Positions 11,902 to 51,488 of a DNA stretch of 63,213 nucleotides are shown one piece after another. The notes beneath the pieces were generated by a model that made no database searches, was not told the DNA's origin, and saw nothing but the letters and a program-made list of their open reading frames with translations. The stretch lies in contig JACRLY010000090.1 of NCBI GenBank assembly GCA_016219595.1, positions 1 to 63,213 on the forward strand. Reading direction: 5' to 3'. Positions within the stretch are counted from its first letter, which is position 1; each line of letters begins with the position of its first letter. A program made the translations under genes and the position numbers. Source of the DNA: Ignavibacteriota bacterium (GTDB lineage Bacteria > Bacteroidota > Ignavibacteria > Kapaibacteriales > UBA2268).

Positions 11902-12017
11902 TTAAATTCAACCTCACCCAAAAAAGAAATTCTAAATTATGAATGCTGAATTATGAATGGTGGTTATATTATGAAAGTTGAAAGTTTGTAAAGTTAGAAA
12001 GTTTGTAAAGTAGGAAA

Positions 12018-12051
12018 TAAATCCCCTTGAATCCCCCTTTGAAAAAGTGGG
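12018..12051. repeat. C-rich dispersed repeat, degenerate copy
   Basis: The sequence AAATCCCCTTGAATCCCCC followed by TTTGAAAAAGTGGG matches the layout of the copy beside the IS element at 16499-16530 (TCCTCCTGAATCCCCCTTTA). Its palindrome arm is partly decayed. Confidence 0.5.
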
Positions 12052-12341
12052 CAAAACATTTCGGAATATCAAAGAACGGGCAGGGCGAATATAAGACAGA
12101 TGGAGTGTTATGTCAAGAAAACGGTTTTAAAAGGATTAAAAAAAAATTACTGCTAATTTTATGTTACCACTAATTTTATGTTACCGATAAAATTTTTAAA
12201 CTGAAAAGAAAAAACGGTTTGAAATCCTAACGATAATTCATTAACATAATCAACTGCCAAAAAATCTCCGCAGATTAGGTATAAGAATTGGAATTGGCAG
12301 GGTAATTATGTAATACAAACAATTACATTATTTATGGTATA

Positions 12342-12554
12342 TCATCCACCAAGACAACCCATAACGCATCCTCTTGTATTTGTCTTAGTATGAGCACTAT
12401 GTTTGGTATAAGCTCCAATAATTTCATCAGATTTATTTATTGCTATTACCGATGTAAATGCATCTTGAAGAGCGGGATAATTCATTTTTAAAAGAATAGA
12501 TTCATCACTTGAAATTTCTTTAATTTTTTCAGAAATAATTTCTTCTGTAATCAT
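12342..12554 (-). CDS. Candidate RiPP precursor peptide, 70 aa, Cys/Gly-rich C-terminus
   Basis: This small gene encodes 70 residues. The N-terminal half is acidic and helical (MITEEIISEKIKEISSDES), which suits a leader. The middle resembles folded sequence (MNYPALQDAFTSVIAINKSD). The end, TRGCVMGCLGG, carries the only two cysteines (C63, C67) and five glycines. It lies 12 bases downstream of a radical SAM/SPASM gene on the same strand. Its strong ribosome binding site overlaps that gene's stop codon, so the two are almost certainly co-translated. Small peptide plus SPASM enzyme is the standard arrangement of radical-SAM RiPP loci; the modification (for example a Cys thioether or C-C crosslink) is inference. 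I do not recognise the family. No protease or exporter gene is adjacent. Confidence 0.7.
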   Translation of the reverse strand: MITEEIISEKIKEISSDESILLKMNYPALQDAFTSVIAINKSDEIIGAYTKHSAHTKTNTRGCVMGCLGG

Positions 12555-12561
12555 GATAAGG

Positions 12562-12569
12562 CTCCTTTA
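12562..12569 (-). promoter_or_regulatory. Strong Shine-Dalgarno site overlapping the upstream stop codon
   Basis: On the minus strand, TAAAGGAGCC stands 7 bases before the peptide's ATG, and its first bases are the TAA stop of the radical SAM gene. This is one of the clearest ribosome binding sites in the window. It suggests coupled, efficient translation of the peptide relative to its modifying enzyme. Confidence 0.75.
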
Positions 12570-13670
12570 ATTTGTGATTAGTACGGAATTAATTCTACTT
12601 AATGCATGTTTTATTAAAGCTTTATATACTATACAAAGATGATCAGGTGAATTGATATTCTCATTATGACAAATTGCATGATGCATACATCCACCGTTGC
12701 AATATTTCCTAATTTCACAATTTTGACACTCAGGAATAATATTTCCACATCTTTCTAATAATTTAATCCTAGTTGGACTTATAAGTATGTCCTCAAGGTC
12801 AGTATTAAGAATATTCCCAAATTTGAACCCTTCATTATTATCGAAACGATTACACGGATAAATATTACCTTTGGGATCAATTGAAATAAAAGTATATTGG
12901 CAGTTTTCGCTTAAGAAACAATCAGAAATTCTGTTTTGAGATAATATTAATTGGGTAACTCCAAACCCAGGATTTGCTCTAATTGGGTTCTTTTTTTGAA
13001 AAAACCATAAATCAAATACTTTTATACAAGATTCAAGATATTTTTGTGGATGAACTTCAAGATCCTCATGTTTTGAGAATAAATCTGATGAAATTGGATT
13101 GATACCAAATGAAAAATTATTGTCATAACAATATCTAAATATTTGCTCAATATATTGAACATTATTATTTGTTATTGACATTAATATACCAATTTCAATA
13201 TCCTTTCGCTTTGCTTTTTCAATATTGTTCAAAATTACTTTATGAGTACCCTTCTTATTTTTTGTAAATCGTATTTTATCATGATAATTCGCTGGACCAT
13301 CAAGACTAATACTTATTGATACCTTAAATTGAGAAAATAAATCAAGTAATTCTTCACTAATTAGATAGCCGTTAGTCTGGAAAGTATGACTAATTCTGTA
13401 TTCTGAATTTATATTTTCTGTAAACCTAAAAGCCTTATAATAAAATGAAAGAGGCATTATGCTCGGCTCACCACCATGCCATATAAACAATGTTGAATTC
13501 TTTCTCTTTGAATTATATGCTATAGATTCAGTAAGAACTTTAAGCATTAAATCATCACTCATTTTATTATTACCCTTATTACCTTTGTAGCAATAAAGGC
13601 ACTCCAAATTACAGTTATCTGTGGGTTGAATTAAAATATTTAAAGGTGATTCTTTGATATAATTAATCAT
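12567..13670 (-). CDS. Radical SAM/SPASM peptide-modifying enzyme
   Basis: This is a 367-residue radical SAM protein of anSME/SPASM architecture. The SAM-cluster motif CNLECLYC (C20, C24, C27) is followed by GGEPS (66-70), QTNGYL and the SISLDGP strand. The C-terminal SPASM region carries C251, C257, C273, C308, C315, C318, C324, C328, C334 and C346, enough for two auxiliary Fe-S clusters, with the classic YPCNRF and CNGGCMHHA patterns. Family members either mature sulfatases or modify ribosomal peptides. No sulfatase is nearby, and a 70-aa Cys-containing peptide follows directly, so peptide modification is the better reading. The start is ATG with a weak upstream site. Confidence 0.88.
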   Translation of the reverse strand: MINYIKESPLNILIQPTDNCNLECLYCYKGNKGNNKMSDDLMLKVLTESIAYNSKRKNSTLFIWHGGEPSIMPLSFYYKAFRFTENINSEYRISHTFQTNGYLISEELLDLFSQFKVSISISLDGPANYHDKIRFTKNKKGTHKVILNNIEKAKRKDIEIGILMSITNNNVQYIEQIFRYCYDNNFSFGINPISSDLFSKHEDLEVHPQKYLESCIKVFDLWFFQKKNPIRANPGFGVTQLILSQNRISDCFLSENCQYTFISIDPKGNIYPCNRFDNNEGFKFGNILNTDLEDILISPTRIKLLERCGNIIPECQNCEIRKYCNGGCMHHAICHNENINSPDHLCIVYKALIKHALSRINSVLITN

Positions 13671-13857
13671 TATTCTTATTAATTTATTGTTTAAAATTTT
13701 TATTGTATCGCCTAAAATCTTTTCTTAATACCATTTTCATTTGGAGCATTACATTTTTGTTTAAATTAAATGAATCGAAATTTTTAATTCTATATATTTA
13801 ATTTGGATTTTCTTTTATATCTTCCATTAATCATCAATTGAATAATTTTAAAATTAT

Positions 13858-14325
13858 TCATTTTATCAACTTATCTATATCGGTGATCAAGAATTTTAGC
13901 ATATCTAATTCTTTTAAATTAGTTTTTTTATTTCCAAATTCTTTTCTGATTTCTAATAATAACTTACCAAAAAGAATTAATAATGGCGTATGATCAGTGG
14001 CATTTTGGTTTTGATATAAATATTGAAAAAGATTATTATATGAATTTGTAACTGAATCTGAACCAAATATCATTAAATTAAAAGCAGTCTGTTTATAATC
14101 AAATGATTGAATTTCCTTAATTGCAACTTCTAATTCATTATTATTTTTTACACCAGTTAAAACTCGGATAAATGGAGTAAGAATTTTTATATAATTCTCT
14201 CTTTTTGTACTTAACAAACTTTCTTTTTGAAGTCTAAATTTTTCACTTTTATCTTTTAGAAACCACCCAATAATAATACCTAATAATGTGATTAAAGATG
14301 GTCCCAATACTTTTAGAATTTCCAT
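13858..14325 (-). CDS. Hypothetical single-pass membrane protein
   Basis: This is a 155-residue protein with one N-terminal membrane segment (about residues 6-24, VLGPSLITLLGIIIGWFLKD) followed by a charged, helical cytoplasmic part. The N-terminal topology resembles many small membrane-anchored proteins of phage or accessory origin, but I do not recognise a family. It lies 187 bases upstream of the radical SAM gene on the same strand, so membership of that operon is possible but unsupported. The composition is AT-rich, as in the rest of this island. Confidence 0.6.
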   Translation of the reverse strand: MEILKVLGPSLITLLGIIIGWFLKDKSEKFRLQKESLLSTKRENYIKILTPFIRVLTGVKNNNELEVAIKEIQSFDYKQTAFNLMIFGSDSVTNSYNNLFQYLYQNQNATDHTPLLILFGKLLLEIRKEFGNKKTNLKELDMLKFLITDIDKLIK

Positions 14326-14551
14326 ATTATTTACTAAATTATTTTATACAAATATTTATCAAAATCAATTAATAATATCTATGTACCAGATAATTCAATT
14401 TTATTGAAATTTTCAAAATCCGGAAATACATATTTTCCGGTTTCCCGTGTTTCGAGATTTATTCTATTTAACCAGTATTTTCAAAGAAAAGTAATTCGGT
14501 ATAATCTATTTTATTTCCAATAATTTATGTTATAATCAGTATTAAAATATA

Positions 14552-14559
14552 TAATTTTT
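14552..14559. repeat. Target-site duplication, left copy
   Basis: TAATTTTT directly abuts the left inverted repeat of the insertion sequence and is repeated exactly after the right end. The local DNA is AT-rich, so some chance similarity is possible, but length and placement fit the family rule. Confidence 0.8.
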
Positions 14560-14584
14560 CGCAAGTATCACCCAATAGACAGTA
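14560..14584 (+). repeat. Left terminal inverted repeat of the IS
   Basis: This 25-base arm is perfectly complementary to 16427-16451. Similarity stops immediately inside position 14584, which sets the repeat's inner limit. Confidence 0.93.
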
Positions 14585-14606
14585 ATATTATTTAACTTAA
14601 AAAATT

Positions 14607-15584
14607 TCATACTCTTACCCTACGTTTTCTGAAATAAGCTAATTTTTTTACATCTTTTTTGGGCTTATATTTAACTAAACATTTTTCTTCGGCTACTGCA
14701 TTTCCGATAAATTCCTTGAAAGATTCAGTTCTGCGGTTTCGCCGATTATACTTGAAAGAATACTCAGCAAGGTAAAAAGGCAAATACTTTTTGCTTATTG
14801 CATTGTAACTACCTCTTATGCCGTCTTTCAATATGCTCCAGAAACCTTCAATGGTATTAGTATGAATTATACCTTTTGCAAAGGCTTCTTTGTGATTTAT
14901 TGTCATGTGTTCCACAACTTTGTCAAATGCTCTATAAGAAGGGAACTCATCAGTTATGACAAGTGCTTCATCTTCTTTAACATACTTTTTAAGCATTGCC
15001 AATAAATTTCGTGTTGTCAGTTTCTCAATGATTTTAGTTGTAACTTCACCACTTTTACCTCTTGATACTGCACCGACAACAGGTATTTTCTTTGTCCCTC
15101 TACCTCTTTTATTTTCAACTCTGCATAGCACAGGTGAATTAATAGGGACAATTATATTAGGTTTTCTTGGCTTTCCGCCTATGTATGTTTCATCAAATTC
15201 AACGATACCCTCAAGTAAGTCAGCTTGGTCAAGCATTGCACATCTTACCCTCATTGCAGAATACCAAGCAGTTTTATACGATATTCCCAAGTCTCTTGAT
15301 AATTCTTTTGCTGAAATTCCCATTGGAGCATTACACATCAGGGCTATCATATAAAACCAAATAGTCAAATCAAGTTTAGTATCTTCAAATATAGTATCAA
15401 CCAAGACGCTGAAATCCTTATTACAATTATTGCAATGATAACGGTATTCCTTTTTTCGTTCATAGATTCTTTCATCTTCATTACAATATGGACAGACAGG
15501 CACACCGTTCCAACGTACCTTCTCTAAATGCAAAAGGCACTTTTCATGTGTGTTAAATTTCCGTTGTAATTGTAATAAGTTCAT
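14607..15584 (-). CDS. IS1595-family DDE transposase
   Basis: This is a 325-residue transposase. The N-terminal zinc ribbon is C31-x2-C34 and C51-x2-C54 (CPYC, CNNC). A helix-turn-helix-like segment follows (MGISAKELSRDLGISYKTAW, 88-107). The ISXO2/IS1595-type catalytic core then has D131 in FDETYIGG, D212 in ITDEFPSYRAF and E246 in NTIEGFWSILK. The C-terminus is basic. The frame is intact. Its ATG overlaps the stop of the upstream 102-aa gene in an ATGA, so translation is coupled. Confidence 0.93.
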   Translation of the reverse strand: MNLLQLQRKFNTHEKCLLHLEKVRWNGVPVCPYCNEDERIYERKKEYRYHCNNCNKDFSVLVDTIFEDTKLDLTIWFYMIALMCNAPMGISAKELSRDLGISYKTAWYSAMRVRCAMLDQADLLEGIVEFDETYIGGKPRKPNIIVPINSPVLCRVENKRGRGTKKIPVVGAVSRGKSGEVTTKIIEKLTTRNLLAMLKKYVKEDEALVITDEFPSYRAFDKVVEHMTINHKEAFAKGIIHTNTIEGFWSILKDGIRGSYNAISKKYLPFYLAEYSFKYNRRNRRTESFKEFIGNAVAEEKCLVKYKPKKDVKKLAYFRKRRVRV

Positions 15585-15889
15585 TTTTTATCATCTTTTA
15601 AAGCAAAATATAACAATAAAGCCGTCCCTAACCCTAAAATCCAACCATTAAATTCACCGTCTTTTAATCTTTCAGCAAATGTTTTTGGTTTGCTTTTATT
15701 ATTAATATACTGTTCCCAAGAGTAGAATCCCATCCTTTTTAATTCATTCTGGATTTCATCTTGACTGTAACCATAATCTAAAAGCATTTGTTCATATTTT
15801 TTATAATCCTCAAGAGACGCAAAATTATATCTAATTTTTTCTTGCAGACCTTTTAATTCATCAGCTATCTGCTTATTTATTTGTTTCAT
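15581..15889 (-). CDS. IS-borne 102-aa protein coupled to the transposase
   Basis: This is a 102-residue protein. Its N-terminal two thirds are charged and helical (KQIADELKGLQEKIRYNFAS), and it has one C-terminal membrane-like segment (GWILGLGTALLLYFAL) followed by a basic tail. Its TGA overlaps the transposase ATG (ATGA), and a TAGGAGACTCC-type ribosome site precedes its own ATG. I recognise no family. Coupling to the transposase and position inside the inverted repeats imply a role for the element (accessory or regulatory), but this is inference. Confidence 0.72.
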   Translation of the reverse strand: MKQINKQIADELKGLQEKIRYNFASLEDYKKYEQMLLDYGYSQDEIQNELKRMGFYSWEQYINNKSKPKTFAERLKDGEFNGWILGLGTALLLYFALKDDKK

Positions 15890-15934
15890 TGGAGTCTCCT
15901 AATCTTATTTTATAAAGTTGTGTATAAGCAGTAT

Positions 15935-16201
15935 TCATCCACCAAAGAAATTAACTCCAAGTAGAACAATAATTAATACGACCATGGAAGGAATCCAAAT
16001 GAAAAAATCATTAATCCTATTATTAGTAGAATCAATTTTTACTTGTAGTGTCTGGTTATGTGCTTCCAATGAATCCAAAGCATTTTTCTCAATAATAGTA
16101 TAAACTTTATCGCCAATCTTTACTTGAGTATCGGATGAATAAGAATTGATAAAACCAAATGAAATAAAAGCGAATAAAATTAGAATTTTAAATCTTTGCA
16201 T
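15935..16201 (-). CDS. IS-borne small exported or membrane protein
   Basis: This is a protein of about 88 residues starting at the ATG at 16201, preceded by AAAGGA. An upstream in-frame ATG at 16297 lacks such a site. A signal-peptide-like N-terminus (QRFKILILFAFISFGFINS) is followed by KIGDKVYTIIEKNALDSLEA, a short coiled region, and a C-terminal membrane segment (FIWIPSMVVLIIVLLGVNFF). It lies within the inverted repeats, 45 bases upstream of the 102-aa gene. The function is unknown. It may be a passenger gene. Confidence 0.65.
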   Translation of the reverse strand: MQRFKILILFAFISFGFINSYSSDTQVKIGDKVYTIIEKNALDSLEAHNQTLQVKIDSTNNRINDFFIWIPSMVVLIIVLLGVNFFGG

Positions 16202-16426
16202 AGCTATATCCTTTAATAATGGTACATTATTTAAGTATGTAATTAAAAGATACAAATTATTTCGGTTATTTCCAATTTTATTCATTGCATTATACAAACA
16301 TTAATTTTCCTCAAAACCTTGATTAAATCTACATTTTACTGTCAAATTCATTTTTCTTGTTTTATTTTTTCTATTTTCTTCCATATATTTGATTTTAAAT
16401 AATTTAAAAAAATTTATAAAATCCCC

Positions 16427-16451
16427 TACTGTCTATTGGGTGATACTTGCG
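16427..16451 (-). repeat. Right terminal inverted repeat of the IS
   Basis: This is the exact reverse complement of the left arm at 14560-14584. It is followed by the TAATTTTT duplication. Confidence 0.93.
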
Positions 16452-16459
16452 TAATTTTT
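16452..16459. repeat. Target-site duplication, right copy
   Basis: TAATTTTT directly follows the right inverted repeat and is identical to 14552-14559. Confidence 0.8.
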
Positions 16460-16511
16460 TGTTTTAATGCAAATTTATTTTACACACTAGCAGAAAGAAA
16501 TCCTCCTGAAT

Positions 16512-16530
16512 CCCCCTTTATGAAAGGGGG
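16512..16530. repeat. C-rich palindrome downstream of the RidA gene
   Basis: CCCCCTTTATGAAAGGGGG folds into an 8-bp stem and ends five bases before the ridA-like gene's stop codon (minus-strand direction). The preceding TCCTCCTGAA resembles the copy at 12018. It lacks a U-run for termination on the minus strand. Confidence 0.55.
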
Positions 16531-16534
16531 AAAT

Positions 16535-16969
16535 TTATTTCACTGCAATCATCGAAATTTCTACATGGGCTCCCATAGGCAAGGCGGCGACCTGTACAGT
16601 CTCACGTGCAGGGAAATCTATCGTAAAGAATGAGGCATATACTTTGTTGACAGGATTGAAATCTTTCATGTCGGTTAAGTAAATTGTGGTTTTAACTACA
16701 TTTTCAAAAGTACAATTTGCTGCTTCCAGTACATTTTTTAAATTATTAAGAATAATTTCAGCTTCTTTTGCTGCACCGCCTTCGGCGATTGTGCCGGTTG
16801 CAGTATCGAGTGCAATCTGTCCCGACAAATAAATTGTACTTCCGACTTTTATTGCCTGGCTGTAAGGACCAATCGGCTTCGGGGATTTATCGCTCAAAAT
16901 TACTTTTTTGTCTTTAGCTGATAAATTAATTGATAAAATAAAACATAAAATAAAAACTAAGTATTTCAT
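16535..16969 (-). CDS. RidA-family enamine/imine deaminase with signal peptide
   Basis: This is a protein of about 144 residues. After an N-terminal signal peptide (YLVFILCFILSINLSAK) it matches RidA/YjgF proteins: GPYSQAIKVGSTIYLSGQ, then VVKTTIYLTDMKDF, and the active-site arginine in PARETVQV. RidA hydrolyses reactive enamines and imines released by PLP enzymes. The start at 16969 is chosen because GAGGGAAAC precedes it; the longer frame to 17020 adds unrelated residues overlapping the upstream gene. It directly follows an exported PLP aminotransferase-fold gene, which suggests the two work together outside the cytoplasm. Confidence 0.85.
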   Translation of the reverse strand: MKYLVFILCFILSINLSAKDKKVILSDKSPKPIGPYSQAIKVGSTIYLSGQIALDTATGTIAEGGAAKEAEIILNNLKNVLEAANCTFENVVKTTIYLTDMKDFNPVNKVYASFFTIDFPARETVQVAALPMGAHVEISMIAVK

Positions 16970-19450: not shown

Positions 19451-20364
19451 ATGAAAACTAAAACAGAACAAAATCCGGCGGTAGAACAAGTAGTACCCGA
19501 AGAGAAACTAAAAGCAGTAAAATTTGCCATGGAGCAAATAGAAAAACAACACGGCAAAGGTTCAATCATGAGATTGAGCGATAAGAATGTAGTGCAAGTG
19601 GGATCGATACCAACCGGATGTTTTTCATTCGATGCAGCAATCGGAATCGGCGGTGTACCCAGGGGGAGAATAACTGAAATATTTGGTCCTGAATCATCAG
19701 GTAAAACTACTGTATGCCTGCATGTGATTGCTGAATCGCAAAAACAAGGTGGAATTGCGGCATTCATTGATACAGAACATGCTTTAGATATAAATTATGC
19801 GAAAAGAGTCGGTGTTGATTTGAACAACCTATTATTGTCGCAGCCGGAATTCGGTGAGCAGGCACTCGAAATTGTCGATACTCTCGTAAGAAGCGGAGCT
19901 ATCGATGTGATTGTGATAGATTCGGTTGCGGCACTGACACCAAGAGTCGAGATTGAAGGAGATATGGGAGATGCCCAGATGGGTTCTCAGGCAAGACTAA
20001 TGTCGCAGGCTATGAGAAAGCTGAATGCCGGTATCGGTAAATCCAATACCTGTGTGATGTTTACGAATCAGTTAAGGAGCAAAATCGGCATAGTTTATGG
20101 AAATCCTGAAACAACAACAGGTGGAAATGCTCTTAAATTCTATGCCTCTGTTCGTATTGACATCAGAAGAAAAGAAGTGATTAAGGAAGGAAGAGTGGTT
20201 CATGGTATACTTTCAAGGGTGAGAGAATGCAGGGAAGGGAAGGACTCAAGAAAGTATTGGTCGAAGACCCGAAACTTCTGGAAGACCTGGAATCACAGGT
20301 AAAATCTGCATTGAATATGCAGGTTGATAAAACAGCGGAAAAAGTGCAAAGTGAGAAAGAATAA
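19451..20364 (+). pseudogene. recA: Recombinase RecA with a frame-breaking internal deletion
   Basis: Residues 1-252 are a normal RecA N-terminus and core: the Walker [49 protein letters not shown], and [10 protein letters not shown] ending in [15 protein letters not shown] (to 20206). The frame then runs into unrelated residues. A second frame (20206-20364) reads [16 protein letters not shown] and then [13 protein letters not shown], which is the normal RecA C-terminus. About 50 conserved residues that should lie between (the VKVVKNK...GAW segment) are absent from the DNA. The sequence as given cannot make full RecA. RecA is usually conserved, so an assembly defect is a serious alternative to a true lesion. 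recX follows 38 bases later. Confidence 0.85.
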
Positions 20365-50086: not shown

Positions 50087-51488
50087 ATGAGTGGCTCATA
50101 CATAAATGAATTCGATAATGTTTATCCTTATGCCAAGAAGTTTGCCGGTGGAAGGGAAAAATCTCAGAAAATAGATTTCGAATCGTTTGGTTCGAAAGTA
50201 CCTCCTCATTCCCCTGAAGCGGAGATGGCTGTAATCGGTTCGATGATGCTCGAGCAATCATCAATAGCAAAGGTGATTGAAATACTCGAAATTGAAAGTT
50301 TTTACAGCGAAGCAAACCGTAAGATATATGATGCGATACTCGGCATGTTCAATAAGAAAATCGATGTAGATATAATAACTTTATCGGAGGAGCTTGTTGC
50401 CCGCAAACAGCTCGAAGAAATCGGGGGAACAGCCTATTTATCTGATATAAACCGTAAGACTCCGACTGCTGCAAACGTAGAGCATTATGCAATGATAGTC
50501 CAGGAGAAATATTTAAAAAGAGCACTGATTTCCACAGCTGGAAAAATTCTTTCGAGTGCTTATGATGAATCAACCGATGCACTTGAAGAAATAGACCAGG
50601 CGGAAAGTGAAGTATTCAAATTGTCCGACAAAAGATTTCACAAAGGATATGTGAAAATTAAGCCGATTATTTATGACGCTTTCAAATTAATTTATCATTA
50701 TAGCAGGAAGACCTTCAATGGGTAAAACCGCCCTGGCTATGTCGATGGCGAGGAACATGGCAGTGGAATACAAAAGAAAAGTGGGATTCTTTTCCATAGA
50801 AATGGACGCACAGCAATTGGCTCTTCGTCTGCTTGCCGCCGAAGCAAAGGTTAATGCCAATGACATAAGAATCGGCAAAGTTACTGTCGACTCACTTCAT
50901 AAAATTGTTAAAGTGATGAGCAAAATCAGCGATGCACCTATTATTATCGACGACAGTGCATCTTTGACGATTATGGAGCTTCGTGCCAAGTGCCGTAGGA
51001 TGATTGCCGAGTATGGGGTTGACATCGTAATGGTTGACTACCTTCAGCTAATCAGGTCGCCGAAAGCGGAAAGCCGCGAACGTGAAATTTCGATTATCTC
51101 GCAGACACTGAAGCAAATGGCAAAGGAATTGAAAATTCCTGTTGTTGCTCTTGCACAGCTAAACCGTTCGAGTGAGAAAAGGGAAGACAAACGCCCGATG
51201 CTGTCCGACCTTCGTGAATCGGGAAGTATCGAGCAGGACGCTGACGTTGTGATGTTTGTACATCGTCCTGAATACTACAAAATAAAAACTTACGAGGACA
51301 ACACACCAACGGAAGGCACAGCCGAAGCCATAATCGGCAAGCACAGGAATGGTCCAGTCGGGGTAGCACGTCTTGCATTTGTAAAGGAGTATGCAAGGTT
51401 CGAAACGCTTGCCTTCGAGTACCAGGACATACCCGAAGACCTTGTCAAATTCGATGCCGACGAAGAGGAAGAAGAGCCGGTGTTTTAA
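50087..51488 (+). pseudogene. dnaB: Replicative DNA helicase DnaB with a frame-breaking internal deletion
   Basis: The first frame (50087 to about 50692) gives a normal DnaB N-terminal domain and linker: PHSPEAEMAVIGSMMLEQSS, ITLSEELVARKQLEEIGGTA, then IKPIIYDAFKLI. A second frame, in a different phase (50691-51488), gives FIIIAGRPSMGKTALAMSMA, MVDYLQLIRSPKAESREREI and LSDLRESGSIEQDADVVMFV, which is the normal RecA-like helicase core. The roughly 35 conserved residues that should join them (the TGFxxLDxxxxGLxxxD segment) are missing. As given, the gene cannot produce full-length DnaB. Since the cell needs DnaB, an assembly error or another copy is likely. Confidence 0.85.

Follow-up and report, generated by a model that had tools for sequence, protein, structure and literature searches.

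A rare radical SAM/SPASM enzyme and peptide gene pair with a conserved Cys/Gly tail as a candidate triceptide-type RiPP locus

The DNA analysed here (hereafter the window) is a stretch of 63,213 nucleotides from an Ignavibacteriota bacterium, in which a radical SAM/SPASM enzyme gene is followed, on the reverse strand, by the gene of a small peptide (Table 1). A preliminary description of the region had reported these two open reading frames, of 367 and 70 aa and 12 bases apart, and both are present as claimed, the TAA stop codon of the enzyme (12569-12567) being followed by AGGAGCCTTATC and then by the ATG of the peptide. The strong ribosome-binding site said to overlap that stop codon is likewise found in the window, although it is not kept at the three related loci described below (L009, L011, and L016). 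The peptide has only two cysteines, C63 and C67, and both lie inside the sequence GCVMGCLGG, again in agreement with the earlier account.

Table 1 Features of the enzyme and peptide locus and of the surrounding insertion, in window coordinates.
Feature	Position	Strand	Remarks
Candidate precursor peptide gene, 70 aa	12342..12554	-	Adjoins the enzyme in L009, L011, and L016 too; pN/pS 0.31 vs L009
Predicted radical SAM/SPASM peptide maturase, 367 aa	12567..13670	-	CxxxCxxC at C20/C24/C27
Maturase auxiliary-cluster Cys 251, 257, 273, 315, 318, 324, 328, 346	within 12567..13670	-	
Shine-Dalgarno AAAGGAG, overlaps enzyme stop codon	12562..12568	-	Not kept in relatives
Predicted leader recognition segment LKMNYPALQDAFTSV, residues 22-36	12447..12491	-	Homologous to the relatives' I-x-N-P-x-L-x-R-x-I motif
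Predicted core YTK-HSA-HTK, residues 49-57	12384..12410	-	Aromatics at exact period 3
C-terminal GCVMGCLGG, residues 62-70	12345..12371	-	Near-identical in 4/4 members
Low-GC accessory insertion between GH57 and RidA genes	12063..16497	.	Absent at the same place in G051
Direct repeat bounding the insertion, 78%	12014-12062 and 16493-16541		
IS1595-family element	14546..16465	.	Transposase 14607-15584 (-), 39-nt inverted repeats, two passenger ORFs

The pair lies in accessory DNA, whose limits were set by comparison with a genome of the same genus (G051) in which the GH57 and aminotransferase genes are ~860 bases apart. The window matches this genome up to 12062 and again from 16498, and these breaks, together with the repeats at the edges, define a ~4.4-kb insertion that holds the peptide and enzyme genes along with the IS1595 element and the gene of a 155-aa membrane protein, with a GC content of 24-35% against 37-39% in the flanks. 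The insertion sequence that the preliminary description had placed beside the pair has an IS1595-family transposase and 39-nt inverted repeats, and its passenger ORFs (15581-15889 and 15935-16297) have no Pfam family. Two further irregularities were seen elsewhere in the window: the DnaB coding sequence is broken at the Walker A motif into two ORFs that overlap, the sequence in between being missing (50087-51488), which may be an assembly error or a real lesion, and a RecA ORF (19451-20302) ends early at 283 aa, its frame shifting near the end with sequence apparently missing, possibly through an assembly error.

The same pair was found in three further Bacteroidota metagenome-assembled genomes (MAGs). 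The enzyme nearest to that of the window (67% identical) is from L009 (Bacteroidetes MAG SZUA-528) and is followed by a 70-aa peptide of 64% identity; the enzymes of L011 and L016, both from Bacteroidetes MAGs, are 34 and 32% identical, with peptides of 67 and 76 aa. With synonymous change near saturation in these comparisons, the pN/pS ratio of the peptide was 0.31 between the window and L009 and 0.19 between L011 and L016, the corresponding values for the enzymes being 0.32 and 0.16, and both genes are under purifying selection. Peptide-profile searches of whole genomes gave neither a second copy nor a chance look-alike of similar strength. Few of the genomes sampled from the host's order, class and phylum carry such a peptide, which makes it a very rare one: it was found in 1 of 54 genomes of the taxonomic family, 1 of 123 of the order, 1 of 391 of the class sample (exact pattern) and 1 of 395 of the phylum sample, all other genomes in these sets lacking it. 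The enzyme was matched at E < 1e-45 in only three of the 391 class genomes (L017 among them), and since enzyme relatives were collected by exact matches to six peptide patterns taken from the window enzyme, further relatives may exist. Viral contigs searched with a strict DNA pattern for GCVMGC[LI]GG gave no match, nor did viral contigs and plasmids searched with the peptide query, and the peptide profile gave no new members in the families and orders of the relatives. Two weak matches were rejected, one (L099) carrying a stop codon and lying outside any plausible gene, the other (L100) sitting within a 1098-aa frame.

Defence genes were seen close to the three related loci. In L009, Hachiman HamAB (L009:7583-11769) is 270 bases away from the peptide locus; in L016 a type II restriction-modification pair (L016:3527-5382) is at a distance of ~2 kb, and in L011 a type I restriction fragment (L011:33-392) at ~1.5 kb. 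For comparison, 88 proteins encoded in the flanks of 16 relatives whose peptides have other cores gave no restriction or Hachiman match at E 1e-20. The resulting difference in proximity (3/4 loci vs relatives, Fisher p 0.0035) comes from a comparison that was chosen after the pattern had been seen and that sets four loci against controls of other phyla, and the link to defence genes is a lead only.

Pfam searches of the enzyme returned Radical_SAM (E 1.6e-18) and SPASM (E 7.2e-9). The ten SPASM cysteines previously counted do all lie after residue 250, but the clade conserves only eight of them, the exceptions being C308 and C334; C20, C24 and C27 are conserved alongside these eight. The best NCBIfam model is DynA at 259.6 bits (equivalog NF041298, cut-off 450 bits), followed by anaerobic sulfatase maturase at 199.4 bits (TIGR03942, cut-off 349.45 bits), TIGR04083 at 148 bits, PapB at 144.4 bits (equivalog NF047865, cut-off 340 bits) and GrrM/OscB at 143.9 bits, all family cut-offs being missed, and the same order of models was obtained for L009, L011, L016 and the wider relatives. 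A confident AlphaFold model of the enzyme (pLDDT 90.3) has as its closest folds anSMEcpe (Z 37.8), ChlB bound to a precursor leader (Z 35.4), CteB and SuiB, and anSMEcpe is also the best solved structure by sequence (E 4.5e-31). Asp277 of anSMEcpe, which follows the third SPASM cysteine and is the proposed catalytic base, aligns with Asn274 of the enzyme. In the tree, the four members group with L029, which is from Herpetosiphon, and with L096, an enzyme from the same class; their neighbours are the dynobactin group and a group made up of enzymes from archaea, Kiritimatiellota, Verrucomicrobiota and Ignavibacteriales. Support for the exact place of the enzyme (90/96 and lower) and for the deeper forks is moderate, and it is with this moderate support that the enzyme, whose top model is DynA below every equivalog cut-off, falls among enzymes with triplet-bearing precursors. 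PADLOC matches to viperin (E 2.9e-11) were rejected as an identity, reflecting the radical SAM core only.

The peptide matched no NCBIfam or Pfam family. The relatives' leaders share I-x-N-P-x-L-x-R-x-I, and the leader of the window family aligned with their profile at a probability of 87% in hhalign (pairwise E 3.7e-6 over 28 columns); several of the relatives have I-x-N-P-x-L in common with the window peptide. Common to all four peptides are P-A-L, Y-x-K-H-S (Y49, K51, H52 and S53 in the window) and GCVMGC-x-GG. In the aligned core, Y-T-K, H-S-A and H-T-K of the window stand opposite Y-D-K, H-S-D and W-G-Q of L011 and L016. In the C-terminal halves of all four peptides the aromatic residues are, without exception, spaced 3 or 6 positions apart. 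By shuffling, the run of three aromatics at period 3 has a p value of 0.007 in the window and 0.016 in L011, these values being per sequence and the four members not independent. A two-His metal site was ruled out, the third aromatic position being either His or Trp. The tail reads GCVMGC[LI]GG in all four peptides though their enzymes are as little as 32-34% identical, its protein sequence being kept while the codons change synonymously, and it is confined to the subfamily of the window peptide. Conservation of C63 and C67, which had been proposed as a check, was borne out in the window, L009, L011 and L016, and a third cysteine stands just ahead of the tail in L011 and L016.

In relatives from archaea, CPR bacteria, Kiritimatiellota, Chloroflexota and Proteobacteria, small genes adjoin the enzyme and encode peptides whose C-terminal parts are poor in Cys and carry aromatic-X-X triplets. 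Examples are WSSDWSDWGDHSD of L029 (triplets WSD-WGD-HSD), YNKYDRYDKYDEYSKYDKHDR of L035 (YNK-YDR-YDK-YDE-YSK-YDK-HDR) and YSDHVDHTDHHSD of L010, whose HSD and HTD triplets recur in L013 (core HSDNHRDQHTD) and L043; L096 has YKEVHDKWEK, and triplets are also present in L046 and L087. Aromatic residues of the relatives are most often 3 positions apart (46 pairs, compared with 9 pairs at a spacing of 1 and 6 at a spacing of 2); tested singly, L014 and L025 had no period-3 excess. The enzyme of Photorhabdus australis (L040) scored 538 bits, over the DynA cut-off, beside a peptide that ends in WNSNVHSYRF, and this species is named as the dynobactin producer (PMC11002830). Long runs of H/Y/W-x-D/E/K triplets were seen beside the enzyme in L010, L012, L013, L025, L035, L043, L046 and L087, from archaea, CPR, Kiritimatiellota and Verrucomicrobiota; such precursors could possibly bear many cyclophanes per peptide. 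A related radical SAM gene in a genome of the class Ignavibacteria (L097:2605-5709, reverse strand) has an upstream 70-aa peptide ending in YKEVHDKWEKSGW and belongs to a larger unit, being flanked by a protein with weak kinase-like matches and by a 294-aa protein of no family.

These data bear on the central claim of the preliminary description, namely that an unannotated radical SAM enzyme lies beside its own peptide substrate, and this claim is well supported. None of the three observations named beforehand as speaking against it was made: the peptide adjoins the enzyme in relatives, pN/pS places the 70-aa frame under constraint, and the enzyme scores higher with DynA than with the anaerobic sulfatase maturase model. 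A conserved-leader precursor stands beside a modifying enzyme in an arrangement kept in relatives, and judged by these sequence comparisons the pair is a genuine, rare RiPP-type locus.

Triceptides contain i to i+2 crosslinks between an arene and a beta-carbon, as in those made by YxdB (Tyr-Asp), HaaB (His-Ala) and YhhB (Tyr or His to Arg) (PMC11002830). The window peptide has the aromatic-X-X triplets of such precursors, with Y-x-K-H-S invariant in the four homologues; this invariant core points to three-residue cyclophanes, and the window triplets, aligned with those of L011 and L016, fit the i to i+2 pattern. We lean towards reading the pair as a minimal triceptide-type RiPP locus with a conserved Cys/Gly tail, and what is new here is probably a triceptide variant with a fixed tail of this kind rather than a sacti- or ranthipeptide. 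The part of the peptide bound by the DynA-like enzyme would be a helical segment of the leader around P-A-L, and a 5'-deoxyadenosyl radical would take hydrogen from the beta-carbon of residue i+2, which would then join the aromatic ring of residue i in a strained three-residue cyclophane. Up to three cyclophanes could form in the window core (Tyr49-Lys51, His52-Ala54 and His55-Lys57), their counterparts in L011 and L016 being Tyr-Lys, His-Asp and Trp-Gln, and GCVMGC[LI]GG may serve as a follower or be used in a subsequent step (proteolysis, disulfide or metal binding, or attachment). What the sequences show are the two genes and their constraint, the recurrence of the pair, the homology of the leaders and a period-3 aromatic core that relatives share; the crosslink chemistry, the reacting triplets, the role of the tail and the biological role are inferred. 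Counted against the triceptide reading are the facts that the Cys tail, not the triplets, is the most conserved part of the peptide, and that a Tyr-x-Lys cyclophane is absent among the examples found, the nearest being Tyr-Arg, with darobactin for Trp-Lys. The same side is taken by the wide gap to the DynA cut-off, the moderate tree support and the missing period-3 excess in L014 and L025, and also by the lack of any transporter, protease or immunity gene beside the pair; for darobactin a minimal locus of precursor and enzyme suffices, the follower being cut off by host proteases (PMC9055067). A bolder and doubtful extension would have the tail undergo a second modification or attachment of an undescribed kind, giving a product of rings plus a Cys-based terminus, possibly accessory to phage-defence islands.

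The earlier assignment to sacti- or ranthipeptides through C63 and C67 is not the best reading, the cores of the relatives being mostly Cys-free with aromatic-X-X triplets. On that reading thioethers would tie C63, C67 or both to an alpha-, beta- or gamma-carbon of nearby residues, as could be argued from the almost perfect conservation of both cysteines and the nine-residue tail across such distant enzymes, from a significant match to the PapB ranthipeptide maturase HMM (144 bits), and from the presence of CteB, a solved thioether-forming enzyme (5wgg/5why), among the fold neighbours. However, the PapB score is 115 bits lower than that of DynA and misses its own cut-off, and most of the relatives' cores lack Cys, which therefore cannot be the shared substrate of the clade. 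PapB substrates carry a C-x3-D motif; this is absent from the window peptide, whose C-x3-C has no acidic acceptor and whose acidic residues are confined to the N-terminal and middle parts, and we regard thioether formation as unlikely. Slightly less likely still are two chemistries on one peptide, core cyclophanes plus a separate modification, or metal or lipid attachment, at the GCVMGC tail: the core triplets are conserved independently of the tail, which occurs only in this peptide subfamily, yet no second modifying enzyme adjoins the pair in any of the four loci.

The similarity to anSMEcpe, which is the best solved structure by both sequence and fold, would suit oxidation of a Cys to formylglycine (-18 Da) in the manner of an anaerobic sulfatase maturase, but the corresponding model gives 199 bits against a cut-off of 349, Asn274 takes the place of Asp277, a C/S-x-P/A-x-R motif is missing from the peptide and there is no adjoining sulfatase, so that this is the least credible of the alternatives, and very improbable. 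The 70-aa protein could instead be a partner or regulator of an enzyme that acts elsewhere, in keeping with the lack of an adjoining exporter or protease; this seems to us improbable, as homology of its leader to enzyme-linked peptides with hypervariable, triplet-rich C-termini is the pattern of a substrate, and minimal loci with neither exporter nor dedicated protease are known, as for darobactin (PMC9055067).

If the triceptide reading is right, triceptides gain a precursor family in which tandem Tyr/His(/Trp) triplets precede a fixed Cys/Gly tail, and this tail offers a handle for asking what role the follower plays in radical-SAM peptide maturation. The relatives also show that the range of DynA-like enzymes with leader-sharing, triplet-rich substrates includes archaea (DPANN and Asgard) as well as CPR bacteria and Kiritimatiellota.

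Among known systems, anSMEcpe shares with the window enzyme the overall fold and the eight auxiliary-cluster cysteines but differs at the Asp277 position, where the window enzyme has Asn, and the window locus has neither a sulfatase nor its target motif. Ranthipeptide (PapB) and sactipeptide (CteB) systems likewise place a SPASM enzyme beside a Cys-containing peptide, whereas the sequence score for that group is well below the one for DynA, the relatives' cores are mostly Cys-free and the window enzyme begins directly at the radical SAM domain. Dynobactin provides the closest curated enzyme model and the same layout, an RRE-less radical SAM/SPASM enzyme of ~360 aa and then a short precursor with aromatic and His residues in its core; in contrast to it, the window enzyme stays at 259.6 bits against the 450-bit cut-off, the core is YTKHSAHTK instead of WNSNVHSYRF, and the peptide has a conserved C-terminal Cys/Gly tail. 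With the triceptide systems (YxdB, HaaB, YhhB, OscB, XncB and MscB) the window peptide has in common aromatic-X-X triplets with Tyr or His first and, as in the HaaB type, Ala third, while the enzyme lies under the GrrM/OscB, YhhB and XyeB cut-offs and Lys as third residue is absent among the examples found; what sets the window family apart from them is the series of tandem Y/H/H or Y/H/W triplets followed by GCVMGC[LI]GG.
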